Assembly: GCF_006175995.1 (NCBI RefSeq)
Contig: NZ_VDMB01000009.1
Location: 62,001-126,000 of the forward strand
Length of the DNA stretch: 64,000 nucleotides
Source: Desulfobotulus mexicanus
Lineage (GTDB): Bacteria > Desulfobacterota > Desulfobacteria > Desulfobacterales > ASO4-4
Direction of reading: 5' to 3'
Part shown: positions 40,743 through 52,077 of the stretch, one piece after another
How positions within the stretch are numbered: the stretch's first letter is position 1
Layout: each line of letters starts with the position of its first letter
Position numbers and translations under genes: made by a program
The notes under the pieces: model-generated
What the model was told of the DNA's origin: nothing
What the model saw: only the letters and a program-made list of their open reading frames with translations
Databases searched by the model: none

Positions 40743-41323
40743 TGGTGGCCTGTCGAGTTCTTTGTGTGCTCGTTTATAAGGTTTTTAGCGATTATTGTTT
40801 CCACCAGTCCATATCTGTCGAAAATATGGCTTGGTCAGGTAATCCAGAACAAATTTCTTCTTTAAGCCATATTTGTAATGCCAAAAAGTACTTTTAACAT
40901 TAAGGTTTCTGGTAAAAAAATAAGATCGTAGTTCACTTTCAAGATGAATATGATAAAAAAATTACTATCACCCGATTTTCAGGATTTTCCATTTATTAAG
41001 AGTTTGATTTAAACTATTAATTTTACAGCGGCCTTGCCTTTGTTATCAGTATTTTTTCCTGCTATAAAAATTACTAAGTTAAAAAAAATGGAGCATCAAA
41101 TATTATGTGTTGGATTGCTGTTTGTAAATGAAAAAAAGCTGAGTGTTTTTTTGTCGCCATATTTGTTGGCACTTAAGGATTTTCCTGGCAGTAAATATGG
41201 TATTCTTATATTATTCCTGAATTCCCGAGCTATTGTAACGAGGTCGGTGGGCTACCAATCATTTTAACGCTGGCCAGAGTATCAAAAATGGCAAATCGCA
41301 ATATAAAAAAATGGAGGCCAGAT
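40743..41323. other. AT-rich intergenic region with an 11-bp inverted repeat
   Basis: About 580 bases, markedly AT-richer than its surroundings. AAATATGGCTT (40822-40832) and AAGCCATATTT (40864-40874) form a perfect inverted repeat 31 bases apart and might be an operator or transcript hairpin. A 77-codon frame at 41034 has no start signal or known relatives and is not called. Promoters for the flanking divergent genes must lie here. Confidence 0.5.
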
Positions 41324-44300
41324 ATGCAAGGAAAAATGGAGATGAAGAATTGTCTAAGGATTTTAGTCGTTTTGATGCTGTGCGTCTGCTTTTTGTTTCC
41401 ATCCATTGTCTGGGCAGAGAGTAAGAGGCTTATTGTGGAACTGGAAGATGCACCCCTTGCCAGATGGGGCAGTCAGAATCCAGGTCTGATGTCCAAGGGC
41501 CGCCTTAATTTTGAGCAGGCAGAAACCCGAAATTATCTTTCTGCCATTGAAGCACGGCAGGACAAGGTTCTCAGCAGTATGAGAAGGACTGTATCCGGCT
41601 TGAGGATGGCTACTTTTCGGGATGAGGAAAACCGTATGCGGGAACACAGGTACAGTGTTCTTTTTAACGGTTTTACCGTTGAAAGCAATGGGGAAGATGC
41701 TGACAGCCTTATGGAAAGGCTGAAAAAAGTACCGGGCGTTAAAGCCGTATATCCTGTAAGAACTTACGAGCTTTCCATGTATAAAAGTCTTGATCTTATT
41801 AATGCTCCTGCCCTCTGGGAAGATCCCTTAATCGGAGGCAGGTTGAAGGCGGGCAAGGGTATCAGGGTTGCCAGCATGGATACTGGTGTTCACAGGGATG
41901 CTCCCATGTTTGATCCCACTGGTTTTTCCTATCCTGCAGATTATCCGGATGGCGGCCTGGGCTTAAAAGCCAACAATAATGGAAAAATTATTGCTTCAAG
42001 GGTTTATTACCGGCCGGGAGATCCTCCGGCTGCCGGGGATATGGATCCATGGCCTGGGCCTGAGGGGGATTCCCATGGTGTGCATACGGCAGGGACTGCT
42101 GTTGGAAATCCTGTTCAGGCTGATGTCCTTGGCGACAGTTTTAAAATCAGCGGGGTGGCACCAGGGGCCTGGGTTATGAGTTATAAGGTTTTCTATCAGA
42201 GCATGGAGGGGCTCAGTACCTTCGAAAATCCCGAAGGCATAGCCGCACTGGAGGATATGGTTAAGGACGGGGCAGATGTGGTGAACTGTTCCTGGGGTGA
42301 TGGGCCTTTCAGCACAGGCGGTGACTATGATCCTTTGGATACGGCTTTGCTGAACGCCTGGCGGGCCGGACTTTTTGTGGTCATGTCCGCTGGAAACAGC
42401 GGGCCTTATAAGGGAACCACAGATCATCCTTCTGAAGAATATATAAGTGTTGCGGCCAGTACCACCGGTGGCAGTATTGCCGGCGGAAGCCTTTCCATAG
42501 CCGGGCCTTCACCTGTTCCGGAAGAATACCTGAAGCTGGAGGCTGGCATTTCTGATTATGGGAATGTTCCCTCTCTGGGTTCCAGCAGCAGGTATTTTTT
42601 CAAGACAGCAGCAAGTGTGGCACCGGATAATGTGAATGCCTGCGAACCCTTTGAAGGAAGGCCCTTTGAGGGGCTGGCAACGGTTGTAAAAAGGGGAGGA
42701 TGCAATTTTGATGACAAAGTTCTGAATGCTTACAGGGCTGGTGCTGATTTTGTGGTGATCTATAACAATAAAGGCGACGATATCTTTGATCTTAGTTGTT
42801 ATATGGAAGACTGTGATGAAATAGCTGCCTTTGCTGTTTTTACGGGTGAGTCCCATGGAAAGAGTCTTGAAAGATGGTATGACCTTCATAATGAGCAATC
42901 TGAACTGATTTTCAATTTTACACCCTTTCAGCTGGGTAACAGTCCCGATGAAGTTGCTGATTTCAGCAGTCGCGGACCCGGAGTAGGGTATACGCTGAAA
43001 CCGGATATCATGGCTCCGGGTGTGAATATTCTTTCTCAGGGATATGGGCCCCTTGCAGCGGGTGAAGAAAAGCACCTTGGTTTTGGTCAGAATTCCGGAA
43101 CATCCATGGCAGCTCCCCATATTGCCGGAGCAGCAGCTGTTTTAAAGCAGCGCCATCCTTTATGGTCCAATAAGGATATAAAATCTTCTTTGATGTCCAC
43201 GGCAAAATTTATGGATATCTATACACATGATGGAAACCCTGCCCAGCCCCTGGACATGGGAGCTGGCAGGGTTGATCTGACTAAGGCTTTGGATCCAGGT
43301 GTCATTCTGGATCCCCCCTCCCTTGGTTTCGGGATTGTTGAGAATAAAGGGGAAAAAACATTATCCCTTAGTCTGAGAAGTATTCTGCCCGAAGAAAAAA
43401 CCTATCATGTAAGTACTATTTATACTGGTGATGGCTTTGATGCCATCCGTCCTCTGGATGATTTTCATGTGGAGCCTTTATCTGTGACACTGCCAGCCTT
43501 TGGCAGGGCTTCCATAAATGTGCGTTTTAAAGGACAAGGCTATGTTGGTGATCATCAGGGCTATGTTCTTTTGGAAAGTGATACGCACCGGGTTCATTTT
43601 CCAGTCTGGGCCAGGGTTCAGGAAGCCAGGGGGAGTGGAAAAAAAGTTCTTCTTCTGGATATGGATGGCAGTTCCTTCGATGAAAATTTTGAAGATTACA
43701 GAGGCTATTATATAAATGCTCTCAATGCCCTTGAGAAAACCTATGATGTGCTTGATATTAATCCTGATTCAGAAAATATGCAGCTTCCTGAGGCAGCCAT
43801 ACTGGCAGCCTATGAAGCGGTTATGCTTTTCTCCGGGGACAACAATAAAGAAACCCTTGTGGGGGGAGATCTGGACCGTCTTATGGAGTATGTCAATGAT
43901 GGCGGTTTTGTGATTTCCATGGGACAGAATATGTTTTCTTCTGTTCTGAATGATTCTTCCTCTTTATACTCAAGATTTAAAGTGACTGTTATTTCTGAAA
44001 GTATTACGGAGGGCAATCTTCCGGATCTTCCTGTGATTGCTTCTGAAAATGTTCCTCCTGCATTCAGGGGTATTTTTCTGGATCTGAAGGATGGCGGAGA
44101 CGGAGCAGCCAATCAGAGGAATATGGATGAGTTCAGCGAAGGTATTTTACGATATCCCGGCAGAACTTCAGCAGGGAATGGATATCTGATGCAGGTTTCA
44201 AAGGATATGCTGACCCTTGAAAAACCAGCTGTTATTCATCCGGGGATTCTGGTGGCATCTGCCTTGGGGCTTGAGGGAATAAATAATGATACCGGTGCTA

Positions 44301-44710
44301 TGTCAAGGGAGATATTTTTACGTGGAATATTCAACTGGGCCTTTGATACAAGGGATATTACCATAAAAGATATTTCAGCAGACTATGAAAATCATATGGA
44401 AATGAGTCGTTTTGAGGTTGAGTATTCTTCTGATACGGAAGGTGTTGAACCTGTATCTTTCCGTTGGGATATGGGAGATGAAAGTGATTTTCAGGGGCCT
44501 TATGAGTCACCCATGATTGGTTTCGTTTATGAAAAATGTGGTCCCTATACCCTTCGTGCTGAAGTTGTGAACAGTTTTGGTAATCATACCATCGGCAGTC
44601 TGGATGTGAATATTACCCGTTGCCTTGATAAGGAAGAACAACCCGTTCCCAAACCATCTTCCGGCTCTTCTTCCGGTTGTTTTATCCGTGAACTGGTTTC
44701 AGGTTTTTGA
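41324..44710 (+). CDS. Large secreted subtilisin-like serine protease (S8) with PA and PKD-like domains
   Basis: 1128 residues. A signal peptide (LRILVVLMLCVCFLFPSIVWAES) and propeptide lead to an S8 domain with D186 (MDTGVH), H251 (DSHGVHTAG) and S594 (GTSMAAPH). A PA-type insert lies between about 425 and 535. Long beta-rich regions follow, including FGIVENKGEKTLSLSL (fibronectin-like), a DLDRLMEYVNDGGFVI segment, and a final PKD-like domain (RWDMGDES; YTLRAEVVN). The end SSGSSSGCFIRELVSGF resembles a Gly/Ser-Cys sorting or anchoring tail. The ATG with GGAGG six bases upstream is used. It is probably exported and acts on external protein. Confidence 0.92.
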   Translation: MQGKMEMKNCLRILVVLMLCVCFLFPSIVWAESKRLIVELEDAPLARWGSQNPGLMSKGRLNFEQAETRNYLSAIEARQDKVLSSMRRTVSGLRMATFRDEENRMREHRYSVLFNGFTVESNGEDADSLMERLKKVPGVKAVYPVRTYELSMYKSLDLINAPALWEDPLIGGRLKAGKGIRVASMDTGVHRDAPMFDPTGFSYPADYPDGGLGLKANNNGKIIASRVYYRPGDPPAAGDMDPWPGPEGDSHGVHTAGTAVGNPVQADVLGDSFKISGVAPGAWVMSYKVFYQSMEGLSTFENPEGIAALEDMVKDGADVVNCSWGDGPFSTGGDYDPLDTALLNAWRAGLFVVMSAGNSGPYKGTTDHPSEEYISVAASTTGGSIAGGSLSIAGPSPVPEEYLKLEAGISDYGNVPSLGSSSRYFFKTAASVAPDNVNACEPFEGRPFEGLATVVKRGGCNFDDKVLNAYRAGADFVVIYNNKGDDIFDLSCYMEDCDEIAAFAVFTGESHGKSLERWYDLHNEQSELIFNFTPFQLGNSPDEVADFSSRGPGVGYTLKPDIMAPGVNILSQGYGPLAAGEEKHLGFGQNSGTSMAAPHIAGAAAVLKQRHPLWSNKDIKSSLMSTAKFMDIYTHDGNPAQPLDMGAGRVDLTKALDPGVILDPPSLGFGIVENKGEKTLSLSLRSILPEEKTYHVSTIYTGDGFDAIRPLDDFHVEPLSVTLPAFGRASINVRFKGQGYVGDHQGYVLLESDTHRVHFPVWARVQEARGSGKKVLLLDMDGSSFDENFEDYRGYYINALNALEKTYDVLDINPDSENMQLPEAAILAAYEAVMLFSGDNNKETLVGGDLDRLMEYVNDGGFVISMGQNMFSSVLNDSSSLYSRFKVTVISESITEGNLPDLPVIASENVPPAFRGIFLDLKDGGDGAANQRNMDEFSEGILRYPGRTSAGNGYLMQVSKDMLTLEKPAVIHPGILVASALGLEGINNDTGAMSREIFLRGIFNWAFDTRDITIKDISADYENHMEMSRFEVEYSSDTEGVEPVSFRWDMGDESDFQGPYESPMIGFVYEKCGPYTLRAEVVNSFGNHTIGSLDVNITRCLDKEEQPVPKPSSGSSSGCFIRELVSGF

Positions 44711-44863: not shown

Positions 44864-44893
44864 GGGGCACCCGTAAAGGTGCCCCAGTTTTTT
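44864..44893 (+). terminator. Rho-independent terminator of the subtilase gene
   Basis: GGGGCACC and GGTGCCCC pair perfectly around CGTAAA and lead, after AG, into TTTTTT. The T-run overlaps the stop codon of the convergent regulator gene. Confidence 0.88.
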
Positions 44894-46214
44894 ATGGTGC
44901 ATTTCCATCGAAAAGTTTTTTCATTTTTTTCCTTAAACCCTCCCGGCTGATGCCAAGCATTCTGGCGGCCTTCGTTTTGTTACCATTTGCGGCTTCAAGG
45001 GTTCTTTCAATCAGTTCCTTTTCGTTTTCTTCAAGGGAGAAGAGATTTTCCGCAGGTTTGTTTTTATTGCCTTTGCTTCCGGACAGAGGAGGCCTGTTTT
45101 TTTTATTTACTGTTATTTCATTGCTTTCCGGAATAGCCTTTTCCTGCTGAATATGCAGCGACAGATCTTCCACATGGATAATTTCGGAATAGGAGAGGGC
45201 CACCACCCTTTCCACCTCGTTTTCCAGTTCCCGCACATTGCCGGGCCAGTTGTGTACAAGCAAGCAATCCATGGCTTCCTTGCTTATTTTGAGAAGGGGA
45301 CGGTTCATCTGACGGCAATGCAGATCCAGAAAACGCTGAAGCAGCAGGGGAATGTCTCCGGGTCTCTCCCTTAGGGGGGGGAGGGCAAGGGATATGACAT
45401 TGAGGCGGAAAAAAAGATCTTCCCGGAAATGTCCGGCCTTTGCCTCGGCCTTGAGATTCCGGTGCGTGGCTGCCACCACCCGCAGATCCACAGGGATAAC
45501 AGTGGAGCCGCCCACCCTTGTGACCTCCCTTTCCTCCAGTACCCGGAGAATCTTGGCCTGAATATTTAAGGGCATATCTCCGATTTCATCGAGAAAAATG
45601 GTGCCGCCACCGGCCTGTTCCACAAGGCCTTTTCTCATATTCACACCCGTAGCTATTCCCTTTTCAATGCCAAAAAGCTCGCTTTCAAACAGACTTTCCG
45701 GAATGGCCGAGCAGTTGATGGCAATAAAAGGCCCGGATTTTCGGATGGAGTTGTAGTGCAGGGCCTTGGCGATTAGTTCTTTTCCAGTTCCCGTTTCCCC
45801 TGTGATGAGTACATTCACACTTGTATCTGCAATGCGTTCCGTCTGATCCAGAATGTGACGCATGGCCTGGCTCTGGCCCACAATACGTTTGGGGGAAAAG
45901 CGTTCCATCAGCCCTTTTTTAAGGCCTTCGTTTTCTTTGAGGAGCTGTCTGCGGGAAATCTCGAGGGCTTTACTGGTTTCCTTCAGGTTTTTCAGCATTT
46001 CTTCCATCTGAAATTCCCGTGCCTCGATTTTAACAAGCATCATGCCAAAGGATTCTGCAAGACTTGCGATGGGTTCGGGACAAACGGTGCTGCGGGTCAG
46101 CTCAAAAAGGGTTTCTGCCCGGTCATAGCGGTTCCAGACAAGATCGTGGCAGATCTGTTCCATCAATTTGAGAAGGCGTTCAACGTCGGGAGGCAAAGGA
46201 CTTTTATCTGTCAT
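44892..46214 (-). CDS. NtrC-like AAA+ transcriptional regulator with altered GAFTGA loop
   Basis: 440 residues. There is no receiver domain; a helical region (1-110) precedes the AAA+ domain with Walker A GETGTGKE (139-146), Walker B TIFLDEIGDM and a C-terminal Fis-type helix-turn-helix (NGNKTKAARMLGISREGLRKKMKKL). The sigma-54 contact loop, normally GAFTGA, is GIATGV at 186-191. The same deviation occurs in a recognisable subfamily, so it may remodel sigma-54 differently or not at all. It sits downstream of and in the same orientation as the efflux operon, separated by a 15-bp inverted repeat, and may control it. TTGGAAA precedes the ATG. Confidence 0.88.
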   Translation of the reverse strand: MTDKSPLPPDVERLLKLMEQICHDLVWNRYDRAETLFELTRSTVCPEPIASLAESFGMMLVKIEAREFQMEEMLKNLKETSKALEISRRQLLKENEGLKKGLMERFSPKRIVGQSQAMRHILDQTERIADTSVNVLITGETGTGKELIAKALHYNSIRKSGPFIAINCSAIPESLFESELFGIEKGIATGVNMRKGLVEQAGGGTIFLDEIGDMPLNIQAKILRVLEEREVTRVGGSTVIPVDLRVVAATHRNLKAEAKAGHFREDLFFRLNVISLALPPLRERPGDIPLLLQRFLDLHCRQMNRPLLKISKEAMDCLLVHNWPGNVRELENEVERVVALSYSEIIHVEDLSLHIQQEKAIPESNEITVNKKNRPPLSGSKGNKNKPAENLFSLEENEKELIERTLEAANGNKTKAARMLGISREGLRKKMKKLFDGNAP

Positions 46215-46325
46215 GTTTTTTTCCAAATTGTTATCAATCTGTAACTGTTTGGCATCATTTTCACTGGCCAAGAACCATAACTGCAAGGCAGATACACAGA
46301 CACCCAAGTGATTTGCCCGTGACGC

Positions 46326-46399
46326 AATCCGGCACTCAAGCTGAAAAAACCAAGCCCTTTACGGGAGCAAAAATGCTTAAGGATCTTGAGTGCCGGATT
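46326..46399. promoter_or_regulatory. 15-bp perfect inverted repeat between efflux operon and regulator
   Basis: AATCCGGCACTCAAG and CTTGAGTGCCGGATT are exact reverse complements, 44 bases apart, filling the gap between the macB-like permease stop and the regulator start. Could be paired operators or a long transcript hairpin; a T-run is absent. Confidence 0.6.
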
Positions 46400-46434: not shown

Positions 46435-47619
46435 TCAGTCCGTGCGCAGGGCCTGAATGGGATTCAGGGCAGCCGCCTGCCGTGCCGGATAATAGCCAAA
46501 GAAGATACCAATGGCCACGGAAACACCCACACCAAGAATCAATGCCCCATGGACAATTTCAAACTGCCATCCTGAAAACCTTGCAATACCCCAGGAGGTT
46601 GCCACACCAATGAGGCTTCCCACAAGACCGCCCACGAGGGAAAGGAGGACGGATTCTATGAGAAACTGCCACTGGATGTCCTTTTTTCTGGCTCCCAAAG
46701 CCCTGCGGATACCGATTTCCCGTTTTCTTTCCGTAACGGAAACCAGCATGACATTCATGACCCCCACACCGCCCACAATGAGGGAGATACTGCCGATGGC
46801 TCCCAGAAGCAGGGTGAACATGCGGAACTGCCGCTCCATGTGGGCGATCATCTGTTCCGGACTCATGATGCGTAATTGCATTCTGCCCGGAAGAGCCGAG
46901 AAATAAGTGTTGAGATCTTCTGTTCCCATGCCTGTGGTGAAGTCCGGAGAAAGACGGGCCATAAAAGTGCTGATGATACTCTGGGGCGACATACGCAGCA
47001 CAGCAGGAAGGGGCATCAGAAGTCCTTCCTGAATTTCATAGGGTCTCATGCCGCCCATGGCTGCGGGTTCAAGAGTGCCGATCACGGTAATTTTGCGGTT
47101 ATCATAATACAGCTCACTTCCCGGATGGGTGGCAATGCCCTGAGCCTTCAGCTTTGCAGCAAGATTGCTGCTCAGGCAGGCATGGGTTGTGATGCCATCG
47201 AGATCGGAGATGAAGCGGCCCTCTGCCATGGTCAGCCTGTTCATCTGGAAAAAGGATTCGGTAACGCCAAGGGCAGGGATGTTCATGCGTTTTCCGTCTT
47301 TCCTCAGCTCACCATAGGATGAGGCATAGGGGGCCACTGTTTTGATGGAAGACAGACTTTCGGGAATAATAATGATGTCCTGAAGCCTGAAACCTTTGGG
47401 TGTGCCTCCACCACGGCCGTGTTCCGCCTGTATGGAGAGGATGTCCGTGCCCATTTCCATGAACTGGCGCATGCTTTCCCTCTGGGCAAGGGTTCCGATG
47501 GAAACCAGAGCGATGACCGAAGCAATGCCTATGACAATGCCCAGCAGGGCAAGGATGGAACGCTGGCGTGAAGAGATAAGGGAACGACCGGCTTCCCTGA
47601 GATTGGCTTTGAGGATCAT
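46435..47619 (-). CDS. MacB-type ABC transporter permease (FtsX family)
   Basis: 394 residues with four membrane helices: one at the N-terminus (SILALLGIVIGIASVIALVSIG), a periplasmic MacB_PCD domain, and three at the C-terminus (LLLGAIGSISLIVGGVGVMNVMLVSV; REIGIRRALGA after the first cytoplasmic loop, the family hallmark). The ATPase is a separate gene overlapping by four bases, in contrast to E. coli MacB where both parts are fused. Together with the adaptor and TolC it would export macrolides, peptides or lipids. Confidence 0.9.
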   Translation of the reverse strand: MILKANLREAGRSLISSRQRSILALLGIVIGIASVIALVSIGTLAQRESMRQFMEMGTDILSIQAEHGRGGGTPKGFRLQDIIIIPESLSSIKTVAPYASSYGELRKDGKRMNIPALGVTESFFQMNRLTMAEGRFISDLDGITTHACLSSNLAAKLKAQGIATHPGSELYYDNRKITVIGTLEPAAMGGMRPYEIQEGLLMPLPAVLRMSPQSIISTFMARLSPDFTTGMGTEDLNTYFSALPGRMQLRIMSPEQMIAHMERQFRMFTLLLGAIGSISLIVGGVGVMNVMLVSVTERKREIGIRRALGARKKDIQWQFLIESVLLSLVGGLVGSLIGVATSWGIARFSGWQFEIVHGALILGVGVSVAIGIFFGYYPARQAAALNPIQALRTD

Positions 47620-48302
47620 TGGCTTTCCTCCGTCCCGGCAACATATCCGTCCTGCATGCGGATGGTTCCGGGGCACTGGGCTGCAATGCGGGGATCATGG
47701 GTGATGATGAGGGTGGTTATTTTCTGTGTGCTGTTCAGCTCCAGAAAAAGATCCATGATTTCCTGTCCCACACGGGTGTCAAGGGCGCCTGTGGGTTCAT
47801 CCGCAAGGAGAATGGAGGGTTTGCCCACCAGGGCACGGGCAATGGCCACCCGCTGTTGCTGGCCGCCTGAAAGTTCCATGGGTTTGTGTCCTGCCCTGTC
47901 TCCCATCCCCACCTTTTCCAGTATTTCCATGGCCATGGGTTTTTGTTCCTTTTCAGGAATCCCCCTGTAAATTAAAGGAAGGCATACATTTTCAAGGGCC
48001 GTGAGTTTGCCAAGGAGATTGAACTGCTGAAAAACAAAACCTATTTTCTGGTTGCGTATGCCGGAGAGTTCACTGTCGGAGAGTTTGGCCGTTTCTCTGC
48101 CATCCAGCAGATAACGGCCCGAGTCGGGCTGATCAAGGAAACCGATGATATTCATCAGGGTGGATTTACCGCTGCCCGAAGTTCCCATGATGGCTATCAT
48201 TTCTCCGGCATGTACATCAAAGCTTACGCCTTTGAGAACATGGACCTGCACAGGCCCAAGGGTAAAAGATTTTTTTATCTTTTCCAGTTTGAGAAGGCTC
48301 AT
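47616..48302 (-). CDS. MacB/LolD-type ABC transporter ATPase
   Basis: 228 residues: Walker A GTSGSGKST, Q-loop VFQQFNLL, signature LSGGQQQR and Walker B ILLADEPTGALD, with the MacB/LolD phrase MNIIGFLDQPDSG. The ATG overlaps the stop of the adaptor gene (ATGA), so it is co-translated. It drives the permease encoded next. Confidence 0.94.
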   Translation of the reverse strand: MSLLKLEKIKKSFTLGPVQVHVLKGVSFDVHAGEMIAIMGTSGSGKSTLMNIIGFLDQPDSGRYLLDGRETAKLSDSELSGIRNQKIGFVFQQFNLLGKLTALENVCLPLIYRGIPEKEQKPMAMEILEKVGMGDRAGHKPMELSGGQQQRVAIARALVGKPSILLADEPTGALDTRVGQEIMDLFLELNSTQKITTLIITHDPRIAAQCPGTIRMQDGYVAGTEESQ

Positions 48303-50062
48303 GGCGTCCATCCCCCAAGGCGTTCTCCGGGTTCAAGTCCTGAGAGTATTTCCACGGAACCCAAAGTGGTGATGCCCGTTGTCACCTTTCTTTCTTCCAT
48401 GCTGCCGTCATCCTTTACAACCCGTACCATGGCATGGCTGCCTGCGGGCCGTACCAGATAAAGGGGAACCAGCAAAGCCTGCGGATTATCATAGACAAGG
48501 ATTTCAAGGTCTGCGCTCATGCCTACCCTTATGGACTTGATGGCTTCTGCGCTCAGTTCAGGAAGGGTCACCTGCACCTCAAAACCCGGAGCTTCCCTGC
48601 CGCCTCCTGAGGTAGCCTGGGCGGAAATATGAGAAAGATGCCCCTCCAGCAGGATACCGGGAAAGGCATCCCCCCTTGCCCTTACCTTCTGATTCAGAGA
48701 CAGCCTGCCAATCTCCACCTCATCCACCCGGGAAAAGACCTTAAGGCCACTGAGATCCCCAAGGGCAAAGAGGGCAGTACCCGCCTGCACCCTGGCACCC
48801 TGATCCAGAGATTGTTTTTTGCTTTCTTCCGTAACGGGCTGAATCACCACACCGGATACGGGAGCCCTTACCTCTGCCTGAGAAATGAGGGATTCCAGCT
48901 CATCAAGCCGGATACGGGCATTGTCCAGCTCCATTTTAGCGATACTCAGGTTTTCAGGGCTGGCTTTTTTTAGGGTGGACGCCATTTCTTCCCGGCTGGA
49001 GATAAGGTCCATGCGGCTGGTTTCAACCTGCTGCTTTGCCCTGTCCAGCTCCTGGGCAGGAATAATCCCCCTGTCAAAAAGCAGGTTGGCTTCCTCAAGC
49101 TGGCGTATATGGTTTTCAAGGCTGCTTTCTGCCCGTTGCAGACTGCGTCTGGCCCTTGCCATTTCCGTACTTTCTTCCCATGCGGCCAGTTCTTCATAAT
49201 TCTGCAGCACTTTAATATAGCTGCTTTTTGCTTCTCTCAGCTTCATTTTTGTTTCAGAAACGTCAAGCAGCAGAAGAAGATCTCCCTTTTCCACCACCTG
49301 ACCAAAGGAAAAGTGGCGTTCAAGGATTCTTCCGTCAAAGGGAGCTGTCAGCATGATTTCCTCCAAGGGCTGGAGACGGCCCGAAAGGGAAATGCTGGAG
49401 GAAACGGGACTGGTTTTTACGGTGTGAATACCCTGACTTTCTTCTGCCATCATTCTTGTGGATTTTATTTCCTTTGATGGGGAAGACAGGTTTGAAAAAC
49501 CCTGAAAATGAAAATACCCAAGACCCACAAAAAAAAGGATGATGCCTGCTGTGGCAAGGCCCCTTACTATCTGTACCTTTTTAAGAAGTCCTCTGAGTCT
49601 GAGGTTGCTGGCCTCTGTTTCTTCATATGCCTTTGCAAGTTTTCTGGAGTTTTCCCTTTCCTGTTCCTGAAGAACCTTCAGTTCCGTAATGTCTGAAAAA
49701 ACCACCACAACACCGCTGGCTTCCTTTTCTTCTTCACGGTGAAGCCAGGATGAGGAAAGGCTTAAGGTCATTTTCTGGCCGTTGGGCCTGATAAAGTCAA
49801 CGGTCTCCCGCTGTCCTACTTTTTTTCGGGTGACAGCATCCAGAACCTTCTGGTTGAAGGCATCATTATCTTCTTCCGCAGCAAGAAAGACCTCGGCAAA
49901 GGTATGTCCCCGCACAAGACTGGCATCCAGTCCCAGAATGGCCGCAGCAGCAGGATTGAAAAGGGTAATGCTGCCCTGAAAGTTCAGGGCCATGACACCG
50001 TCTTTCATGTTGTCCAGAACACTCTGGTGAAAATCTTTTTGAATATCGGGTTTTATATTCAT
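48299..50062 (-). CDS. PAS domain-MacA/HlyD membrane fusion protein hybrid
   Basis: 587 residues in an unexpected order. Residues about 10-130 are a PAS domain (VLDNMKDGVMALNFQGSITLFNPAAAAILG; GVVVVFSDITELKVLQE), then a coiled coil (130-165), one transmembrane helix at 166-186, and from 205 to the end a periplasmic adaptor of the MacA/HlyD type: lipoyl motifs (APFDGRILERHFSFGQVVEKGDLLLLLD; VRAPVSGVVIQPV), a long alpha-hairpin, and a membrane-proximal domain (GSVEILSGLEPGERL). Ordinary adaptors start at the helix. The PAS domain would be cytoplasmic and could sense a ligand or redox state and modulate the pump. The GTG/ATG choice is clear: ATG eighteen bases after the tolC-like stop. Confidence 0.88.
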   Translation of the reverse strand: MNIKPDIQKDFHQSVLDNMKDGVMALNFQGSITLFNPAAAAILGLDASLVRGHTFAEVFLAAEEDNDAFNQKVLDAVTRKKVGQRETVDFIRPNGQKMTLSLSSSWLHREEEKEASGVVVVFSDITELKVLQEQERENSRKLAKAYEETEASNLRLRGLLKKVQIVRGLATAGIILFFVGLGYFHFQGFSNLSSPSKEIKSTRMMAEESQGIHTVKTSPVSSSISLSGRLQPLEEIMLTAPFDGRILERHFSFGQVVEKGDLLLLLDVSETKMKLREAKSSYIKVLQNYEELAAWEESTEMARARRSLQRAESSLENHIRQLEEANLLFDRGIIPAQELDRAKQQVETSRMDLISSREEMASTLKKASPENLSIAKMELDNARIRLDELESLISQAEVRAPVSGVVIQPVTEESKKQSLDQGARVQAGTALFALGDLSGLKVFSRVDEVEIGRLSLNQKVRARGDAFPGILLEGHLSHISAQATSGGGREAPGFEVQVTLPELSAEAIKSIRVGMSADLEILVYDNPQALLVPLYLVRPAGSHAMVRVVKDDGSMEERKVTTGITTLGSVEILSGLEPGERLGGWTP

Positions 50063-50079: not shown

Positions 50080-51669
50080 TCAGCGGTGGAGCATCCAGGT
50101 TTTATTGCCGAGATATTCAGCTTCAAGGTCAGTGCGTTCGGTGACAAAGGCGATGTTCCAGGTATCAAGGGTAGTGGCCAGCAGGGCATCCAGGCGGGTG
50201 AGGCTGTTCTGATAGGTCATGATGGCCCTGATTTCCGCCAGTCTGTCATCCCTCAGCTTGTCCTGTTCACGGATGAAATCCGCATTGGAAATTCTTCCCA
50301 GTTTAAACTGAAGTTCGCTCACAAGGAAGTTTTCTTCGGAAAACTGACGAGTTTTTGAGGCCAGTTCCACCCGCCTCAGGCTGGAAGCCACCTGACGCAC
50401 GGCATTGCGGACATTGTTTTCAAGGGATTCTCTGGCCGTAAGCAGTTGCATGTTGGCTTTACGGAGATTAATTCGTGCCGAAAGAAGGGGCATTTCCCTG
50501 TTGTATTTCTGATCTCCGTAGAGGGGCAGGGGAATTTTCAGGCTGAGGCCCAGCCACCAGTCTTCCTGGCGGTAGGAGGGATCGTTTTTCCGATGATTCC
50601 AGCCGTCTTTGTAGCCCCCTTCCAGATCCAGATTCCATAATCTCTGGTTCTCTGCATCGGAAAGGCCCATTTTTGCCATTTCAAGGGAGGTGAGGGCAGA
50701 CAGGTAGGAATTATCCCGCTCAAGGGCCAGAGCCATAAGGTCTTCAAAAACTGGTTCAATGGATTTGTAAATGATTTTTTCCGTGGGGACAAGGGTGGTG
50801 TCTCCACTGATTTCAAGGCGTTGCAAAAGGGCAAGGTGGGCATCGTCCATCTGTGCTTTTGCTTCTTCAAAGGCCAACTCCTGACGGGCAAGGTTTGCTT
50901 CGGACTGGAGGATTTCGTTGGGTGCCCGTCTTCCCGTTTCTATCATGGTCCGTGTAACCTCAAGCTGCTCCCTTGCCTTGGACAGGGCATCTTCCTGCAC
51001 TTCCATATCCTGATAAAGGGATAAGAGGGTCCGGTAATCCTGAATTACCCCGGAAATGGTGCTGATCAGGGTATCCCTCAAAGATCGGATATTATTTTCT
51101 TCCTGCATGGCCGCACGTCTGAGGGGAGCGGTATTGTGGTCAAGTCCACCGTCTTTCAGCAGGGGCTGTCGGAATCCCACGGACCACTGGGAAAGCCCGC
51201 TCTGTGTTTCTCCGGAGCTGCCATCCGTTTTATTATAACGGCTTTCAAAACCATTTTCCCAGGCAAAGATAATTTCACCGCCAGTGGGAATTTTCTGGCT
51301 GACGGTACTGACAAGGGAGAGACCTGCACTGTCTGTGCGGGAGCGCATGGTGTCCGGACCGTCGGAGGCATAGTTCGTTGCAGTTCCTGTGGTTCTTGTG
51401 CTGGCCTGAGGGCTGATGTCGAGGTTGGGAGAAAATTGAGTCATGTCCTGACCCAGCCTGAATCTTTCAAGTATTCTTGAGAGATAGGCACTTTCAATGG
51501 TGCGGTTTTGTCTCAGTGCCAGATGGATGGCTTCGGTGAGACTGAGTTCCAGAACGGAAGGAAATTCAGGCTCCGGGCTGGCTGTATTCTCCTGGGAAAA
51601 AAGGGGAGGGGGGATGCAGAAGACAAGAAAAATCAGAAATCCTGCAATCCGTAAACTGGCATGTTTCAT
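50080..51669 (-). CDS. TolC-family outer membrane efflux protein
   Basis: 529 residues: signal peptide (LRIAGFLIFLVFCIPPPLFSQE) and two OEP repeats of the TolC fold (LSLTEAIHLALRQNRTIESAYLSR; LEMAKMGLSDAENQRLWNLDLEGGY) with the usual long amphipathic helices and SLKIPLPLYGDQ. It forms the outer-membrane channel for the adaptor and ABC pair encoded 18 bases downstream. The ATG at the signal peptide, with CAGGAAAACAAC before it, is used. It is the first gene of the operon. Confidence 0.92.
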   Translation of the reverse strand: MKHASLRIAGFLIFLVFCIPPPLFSQENTASPEPEFPSVLELSLTEAIHLALRQNRTIESAYLSRILERFRLGQDMTQFSPNLDISPQASTRTTGTATNYASDGPDTMRSRTDSAGLSLVSTVSQKIPTGGEIIFAWENGFESRYNKTDGSSGETQSGLSQWSVGFRQPLLKDGGLDHNTAPLRRAAMQEENNIRSLRDTLISTISGVIQDYRTLLSLYQDMEVQEDALSKAREQLEVTRTMIETGRRAPNEILQSEANLARQELAFEEAKAQMDDAHLALLQRLEISGDTTLVPTEKIIYKSIEPVFEDLMALALERDNSYLSALTSLEMAKMGLSDAENQRLWNLDLEGGYKDGWNHRKNDPSYRQEDWWLGLSLKIPLPLYGDQKYNREMPLLSARINLRKANMQLLTARESLENNVRNAVRQVASSLRRVELASKTRQFSEENFLVSELQFKLGRISNADFIREQDKLRDDRLAEIRAIMTYQNSLTRLDALLATTLDTWNIAFVTERTDLEAEYLGNKTWMLHR

Positions 51670-52077
51670 GTTGTTTTCCTGGCACCATTCCGGCTGAATT
51701 TTATGCATCTTATGCTGAATAATATAGTTAAGGATTCAATACCATAATTTTATTTAGAATGTCTTGGATATGAATATTTTTTTCTTCTGTCTGGCTCCAT
51801 AAGTTTCTTTAAACGGCAAACGCTGCAACGAGACCTGCCTTGCTTTTCATATTTTAAAGGTTTGTTTTTTTGGATAGAAATTATCTTTGCATTTTACTGT
51901 TATCTTCAGGAAAAACTTAGGCTTACCAATATGGTGAAGGAAGCAGATGTTGTGCTATAAAAGATTTTATAAAATATTTTATAAAATGCTTGACCCTCAG
52001 TTTTTTTTCTGCAAGAGTAGCATAAAAAAAATGCAAGTCTTGATGATGAACCCCGATCATAAAAAGAGGAGAATGGC
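51670..52077. other. Divergent intergenic region, efflux operon to sulfonate cluster
   Basis: About 400 bases, strongly AT-rich. The right part carries two adjoining 12-bp palindromes (listed separately) and TTGACC-like hexamers but no promoter with correct spacing that I would defend. No gene is seen in it. AGAGGAG precedes the first cluster gene. Confidence 0.5.
51964..51987. promoter_or_regulatory. Two tandem copies of a 12-bp palindrome upstream of the dehydrogenase gene
   Basis: ATTTTATAAAAT occurs twice back to back; each copy is its own reverse complement. It lies about 90 bases before the first gene of the cluster, where a GntR-type or other dimeric regulator could bind. The regulator gene 9 kb downstream is the natural candidate. 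Confidence 0.55.

Follow-up and report, generated by a model that had tools for sequence, protein, structure and literature searches.

MacA, the periplasmic adaptor of the MacAB-TolC exporter, is described in the relevant part of a 2026 review as a protein without a cytoplasmic domain that adapts mainly by transcription (PMC13328181). The fusion of a sensor with an adaptor is already known from another system, namely from SecA_DEAD loci of Planctomycetes, Methylobacterium, and others, in which proteins combining GAF with HlyD and biotin_lipoyl domains occur and for which the authors, in the section concerned with them, propose a regulatory and sensory role (PMC4452313). These loci encode Peptidase_M50-like and SecA_DEAD proteins and, as far as that section goes, no ABC transporter was found in them by the authors. 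Furthermore, plug-and-play regulatory domains on transporters (CBS and cyclic-nucleotide-binding domains) have been reviewed (PMC10710835); GAF, MacA, and membrane fusion have no occurrence in the accessible portion of that review, and neither do GAF and "sensory" in that of PMC8277102. Among the titles and abstract openings accessible in the open-licence literature, none on a PAS-bearing MacA-type adaptor was found.

The locus described here shares features with each of these systems and differs from each. In the window (the whole stretch of 64,000 nucleotides of Desulfobotulus mexicanus DNA that was analysed), an open frame of 587 residues on the reverse strand (48299..50062), with an ATG start preceded by the ribosome-binding-like AAAGGA, joins a PAS domain, a coiled coil, one membrane helix, and a complete MacA/HlyD-type periplasmic adaptor in a single chain. 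This architecture had been proposed in an earlier note made from the sequence, and it is borne out by Pfam, NCBIfam, and hydropathy as well as by its retention across a subfamily (see below). All parts lie on the same strand: the PAS domain comprises residues 16–127 (49682..50017; Pfam, NCBIfam, and family alignment), the coiled coil extends from D124 of a DIT motif to the juxtamembrane R167 (49562..49693; spacing and heptad analysis), the membrane helix covers about residues 168–187 (49502..49561; hydropathy), a variable periplasmic linker about residues 188–213 (49424..49501; sequence comparison of congeners and segment lengths in the family), and the adaptor body residues 214–587 (48302..49423; HlyD_D23, HlyD_3, and RND_mfp matches).

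The PAS match, whose failure by profile would, according to the same note, have refuted the reading, holds with several models. PAS_9 covers residues ~13–129 at 8e-11 (42.6 bits, cut-off 27), PAS scores 34.6 (cut-off 22.6), and PAS_4 33.1 (cut-off 23.1); these three and PAS_8 exceed the gathering score and place the domain in the PAS superfamily, PAS_7 lying just below, and the NCBIfam model TIGR00229 (sensory_box) reaches 54.4 bits (cut-off 22.9). On the adaptor side, TIGR01730 assigns the chain to the RND_mfp family with 139.9 bits against a curated cut-off of 94.9, and HlyD_D23 (49.8, cut-off 30) and HlyD_3 (49.7, cut-off 22.2) agree. PDB matches of the adaptor part are MacA chains (4dk0, 9qgy, 3fpp, 5nik), and those of the family PAS profile are PA0861, the sensor protein 3a0r, and WalK. 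The chain is not a two-component sensor kinase: it contains no Pfam kinase domain, and NCBIfam kinase models match the PAS stretch only. AlphaFold models built from two-sequence alignments were of low confidence (mean pLDDT 49.3 and 39.3); the one of residues 1–194 (mean pLDDT 49.3) would have a PAS-like order of elements followed by one long helix (125–192) that corresponds to coiled coil plus membrane helix. The genome from which the window comes (G000) holds eight TIGR01730 frames, among which a length of ~600 residues is seen only in the PAS-adaptor, the others having 348–495 residues and one of them scoring under the cut-off.

The adaptor gene is part of an overlapping operon in the order TolC, PAS-adaptor, MacB-type ATPase, MacB-type permease. 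The TolC-family outer membrane factor (50080..51708, reverse strand; OEP, 121 bits) lies 17 bp upstream of the adaptor, the start of the LolD/MacB/DarD-like ATPase (47616..48311, reverse strand) overlaps the adaptor end, and the likely ATG (47619) of the permease (46435..47619, reverse strand; MacB_PCD plus FtsX) overlaps the ATPase stop. A complete MacB-type tripartite set is thus present and ATP-driven export is predicted. The likeness to MacA of MacAB-TolC and to darobactin exporters rests on the adaptor body, the MacB_PCD/FtsX permease, the LolD/MacB/DarD-like ATPase, and the TolC neighbour. In contrast to MacA, however, the adaptor carries a PAS domain and a coiled coil, that is, ~160 residues, before its membrane helix, and unlike in MacAB-TolC, ATPase and permease are separate genes. 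None of the MacA, MacB, or DarD equivalog cut-offs is reached: the adaptor scores 46.2 bits against 342 for MacA (NF008606), ATPase and permease score 245.7 and 191.6 bits against 966 for MacB, and the ATPase scores 222.7 bits against 375 for DarD (NF038007). The best NCBIfam scores of the ATPase are LolD 246.9, MacB 245.7, and DarD 222.7 bits, each under its own cut-off, and as LolD stands just ahead of MacB with both below threshold, the kind of substrate is predicted weakly. In comparison with the GAF-HlyD proteins of SecA_DEAD loci, with which the fusion of a sensor domain to an HlyD-type adaptor is shared, the locus encodes a complete ABC tripartite exporter, and the sensor of its relatives is mostly PAS. 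As in transporters with plug-in domains, a cytoplasmic regulatory domain is joined to a transport protein; in those, the transporter itself bears it, whereas here, the periplasmic adaptor does.

Downstream of the permease, the likely ATG of a sigma-54 activator (44892..46214, reverse strand) follows after 221 bp. Since a perfect 15-bp inverted repeat (46326–46340 and 46385–46399) is found in this gap, the activator may be a transcription unit separate from the operon; it is a possible regulator. A sigma-54 promoter before TolC was considered and rejected, as consensus matches in the window numbered 37 versus 40 expected and no good site was common to the upstream regions of three congeners. 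Convergent with the activator gene lies a large gene (41288–44710, forward strand) whose product, judged by its sequence, looks like a secreted protease of the subtilisin kind.

Members of the subfamily were defined as adaptors scoring at least 450 bits to the subfamily profile, which after removal of duplicates gave 54 from 53 genomes of the phylum; a partial adaptor (G069, L089/L180) of 240 residues and 235 bits at a contig end and ten adaptors of 138–200 bits were left out of the counts. Because scoring was confined to the few top candidates of each genome (4–23 in most sets), the member counts are lower bounds. A member was present in at least 11 of 395 genomes of the phylum set, in at least 10 of 46, at least 11 of 277, at least 7 of 63, and at least 17 of 155 genomes of further sets, and in at least 8 of 389 genomes of the window organism's own class, where 13 matches at 1e-50 comprised eight members, the partial G069, and four adaptors under the member cut-off. 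Frame and architecture recur in two congeners (94 % and 89 % identity), the first being Desulfobotulus alkaliphilus, whose adaptor matches all 587 residues. Pfam (E up to 0.01) detected PAS in 49 and GAF in three of the 54 N-termini, which translates into 48 members with PAS, one with PAS and GAF (G1043), two with GAF (G010, G870), and three with the coiled coil only (G362, G421, G541). The search for PAS-HlyD architectures that had been suggested at the outset thus returned 48 PAS members plus the one with PAS and GAF. Synteny is nearly complete among the 54 loci (TolC in 53, ATPase in 53, permease in 52), the missing genes falling at contig ends; at one locus (L076), TolC lies downstream.

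On the adaptor tree, the N-terminal state changes four times among members: the three sensorless ones form one clade and the two GAF members stand apart. The adaptor of L076 sits on a long branch and groups with the outgroup, its placement being uncertain. The PAS tree groups the members much like the adaptor tree (eight label changes, minimum seven); both kinase rows meant as outgroup sit inside the family, so its root is uncertain and a single PAS origin is not established by it. The nearest non-adaptor PAS in the eight genomes searched (L112, G197:C4:307628-308029; 6e-28) reads by eye as part of a histidine kinase. The GAF domain of G010 shares 56–57 % identity with the N-terminal domains of a pair of long proteins from its order that by eye look like HD-GYP proteins, which marks it, on sequence grounds, as a swapped-in sensor. 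At the G1043 locus (L178), PAS and GAF stand in tandem ahead of the coiled coil. Of 259 matching plasmid records, four were inspected, three of them annotated; the related adaptors in these three, from proteobacterial plasmids (Deefgea, Enterobacter, Methylosinus), also adjoin TolC, ATPase, and permease genes, and a sensor is absent from them, with at most ~30 residues before the membrane helix. The only matching plasmid record covering more than 80 % of the query (Roseateles) has 21 % identity, its match starting at residue 98.

The PAS domain is placed on the inside of the membrane mainly because the adaptor must be periplasmic. The window adaptor has one hydrophobic stretch (~residues 163–186, two overlapping 19-residue windows), with four Lys/Arg in the preceding 15 residues and none after it. 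Across the 54 members, charges flanking the membrane helix are biased only moderately: the N side has 177 Lys/Arg in total and the C side 113, with the N side ahead in 28 members, the C side in 12, and a tie in 14. Exactly one hydrophobic peak is seen in 36 of the 54; in most of the rest, this stretch gives a split peak, and a few have a second, weak one within the adaptor body.

Several properties of the N-terminal part are those of a signalling module, as far as sequences can tell. Purifying selection on PAS is about equal to that on the adaptor body (dN/dS 0.118–0.135 versus 0.096–0.156; three congeners, three pairwise comparisons each), the loosest segment is the linker that follows the membrane helix (0.148–0.344), and residues 166–188 are without a single amino-acid difference among the three congeners. 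In a 12-member alignment, G30, N36, A39, L43, and D124 of the PAS domain are invariant and no invariant His or Cys occurs, and none of the 49 PAS-bearing rows measured lacks the DxT/S motif. Between D124 and the juxtamembrane Arg/Lys (R167), 14 of the 48 PAS-only members have a spacing of 43 residues and the other 34 one of 50, a difference of exactly one heptad (seven residues) that requires one change on the tree, and the best a/d phase of the coiled coil between D124 and R167 has a mean hydropathy of +1.72. In the PAS-plus-GAF member, in which GAF lies between these two points, the spacing is 222. For comparison, the PAS core shows nine lengths and 12 changes among the PAS-only members, and the stretch of membrane helix and linker that connects the juxtamembrane Arg with the adaptor body (57–62 residues) six lengths and 11 changes. 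The adaptor hairpin W295–N381 shows one length change, of 14 residues (72 in 5 and 86 in 43 of the 48).

The C-terminal DxT/S motif together with a heptad-spaced linker characterizes a signalling PAS with coiled-coil output, and linker lengths that differ by seven are reported, in the parts of the respective papers dealing with them, as marks of signalling coiled coils in phytochrome-cyclases (54 %; other spacings occur) and in LOV kinases (PMC9587094, PMC6798134). The signalling helix as such is described in PMC1592074, in the accessible portion of which HlyD and transporters are not mentioned. In PAS subtype, DxT motif, coiled coil after PAS, and heptad-spaced linker, the window protein resembles PAS sensor histidine kinases of the AtoS/WalK type; their output differs, however, as the chain here has no kinase core and leads into a trans-membrane export adaptor. 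The spacing rule is support, not proof, since it reflects a single evolutionary event and since three structured adaptor segments are equally constant (0–1 length changes each), so that constancy of length shows structure rather than signalling.

Operon, sensor swaps, and linker rule are additions to what the earlier note had observed. Its idea that cytoplasmic sensing gates a tripartite pump directly, without a two-component relay, appears to be the likeliest reading of the architecture, and the cytoplasmic sensing in it gains support from sensor exchange, the kept DxT motif, and the one-heptad change of the linker. We propose, at about an even chance, that the protein serves a MacAB-TolC-like ABC exporter as an adaptor with a cytoplasmic sensor of its own, by which assembled pumps would be switched post-translationally at the membrane or cytoplasmic face. 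The PAS domain would dimerise and respond to a cytosolic ligand or condition, the change would reach the coiled coil by way of the DxT motif, and the output would consist in altered packing of the adaptor against, or stimulation of, the MacB-type ATPase/permease. The linker past the membrane helix is variable, which argues against a rigid rod reaching into the periplasm and makes the membrane or the cytoplasmic face, close to MacB, the most likely place of output. The broader proposal, held more tentatively and somewhat short of even, is that exchangeable cytosolic PAS or GAF domains on the adaptor switch assembled pumps directly, via a coiled coil in heptad phase and without a phosphorelay, and so define a class of sensor-gated tripartite ABC exporters. 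The variable periplasmic linker, the three-member clade that does without a sensor, and the lack of an invariant PAS His or Cys in the alignment would speak against pump switching. From kinship with MacB and DarD exporters, one may guess that the substrate is a peptide or a small secreted molecule. Small secreted-looking proteins are encoded beside the operon and differ between lineages (L076:4442-5541, L082:9063-10554, L073:3665-4087, L074:9544-9933, L081:9430-9840), the one in L081 being a chagasin-family inhibitor and three others remaining without a Pfam match when scanned; such neighbours are possible cargo.

Signalling could also run the other way, which is a real rival because sigma-54 activator or partner-switch genes adjoin some of the operons. 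The adaptor would then pass pump load or envelope state to a sigma-54 activator or a STAS/RsbW-like partner switch and would act as a receptor in gene control instead of switching the pump, a reading that we consider unlikely. STAS and RsbW-like genes lie directly upstream at 11 of the 54 loci and downstream at two, with STAS alone upstream at two more, and the RsbW-like gene of one genome (G341) runs into the start of TolC; Pfam confirmed STAS and HATPase_c_2 in both loci scanned. However, no STAS gene is nearby at 39 of the 54 loci (some contigs being short). Pairs of this kind are seen, for example, at L072:3361-4127, L079:94-850, L209, and L211.

A further link to regulators is an N-terminal domain of ~100 residues in the sigma-54 activator (45888–46217, reverse strand) that has no Pfam match; besides the Desulfobotulus activator, an HD-domain protein encoded ahead of the operon in G341 carries it. 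In each of three Desulfobotulus genomes, its only copy (E up to 1e-5) resides in the activator beside the operon. Against this stands its distribution: it occurs in 28 of 395 phylum genomes, namely in 3 of the 11 with the pump and in 25 of the 384 without a detected one (Fisher p = 0.036), so that the domain is enriched with the pump, and dedication to it was rejected. In one of the three pump genomes concerned (G421), the copy lies on a different contig. Copies on the pump contig amount to 1/1 in each of the three Desulfobotulus genomes, 2/2 in G341, 1/2 in G813, 2/3 in G809, 1/2 in G975, and none in G440, these eight genomes having mostly been picked after the linkage was already observed. 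Outside the window, the domain stands at the N-terminus of sigma-54 activators and HD-domain proteins (L072:2438-2728, L193, L197, L206), and one pump-free copy (L232) likewise adjoins STAS and RsbW-like genes (by eye). Where a sensor module precedes a DxT motif and a coiled coil, its usual target is the downstream part of its own chain, which here is the adaptor.

An equally improbable explanation is that nothing is sensed and that PAS or GAF serves as a ligand-free scaffold for dimerisation or assembly, which would build the adaptor ring or hold the adaptor at MacB. The PAS alignment without invariant His or Cys would suit a scaffold, and so would the three sensorless members, in which coiled coil and juxtamembrane motif are retained; as the coil is kept without a sensor, it has a role of its own. 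Yet GAF replaces PAS at two separate places in the tree and is added at a third, which an exchange of inputs fits better than a scaffold does, and the retention of DxT/S in every PAS-bearing row also stands against it. Finally, a fusion artefact, which had been named as a danger to the fusion reading, is rejected along with an assembly artefact or a decaying domain; nothing was found in favour of any of them, and they keep practically no probability, given the same frame in three congeners, the recurrence of PAS-adaptor frames in 49 members, and strong purifying selection.

To return to direct switching of the pump by its adaptor, the exchangeable, cytosol-facing sensor suggests that the exporter may be switched directly by an internal signal and not only via gene expression. 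A conserved subfamily whose cytosolic sensors can be exchanged would place a control input on the adaptor, and post-translational control of a tripartite pump would become testable by deletion or swap of the sensor or by a change of the coil phase. Furthermore, the subfamily would, in harmless strains, provide a natural chassis for sensor-adaptor chimeras.
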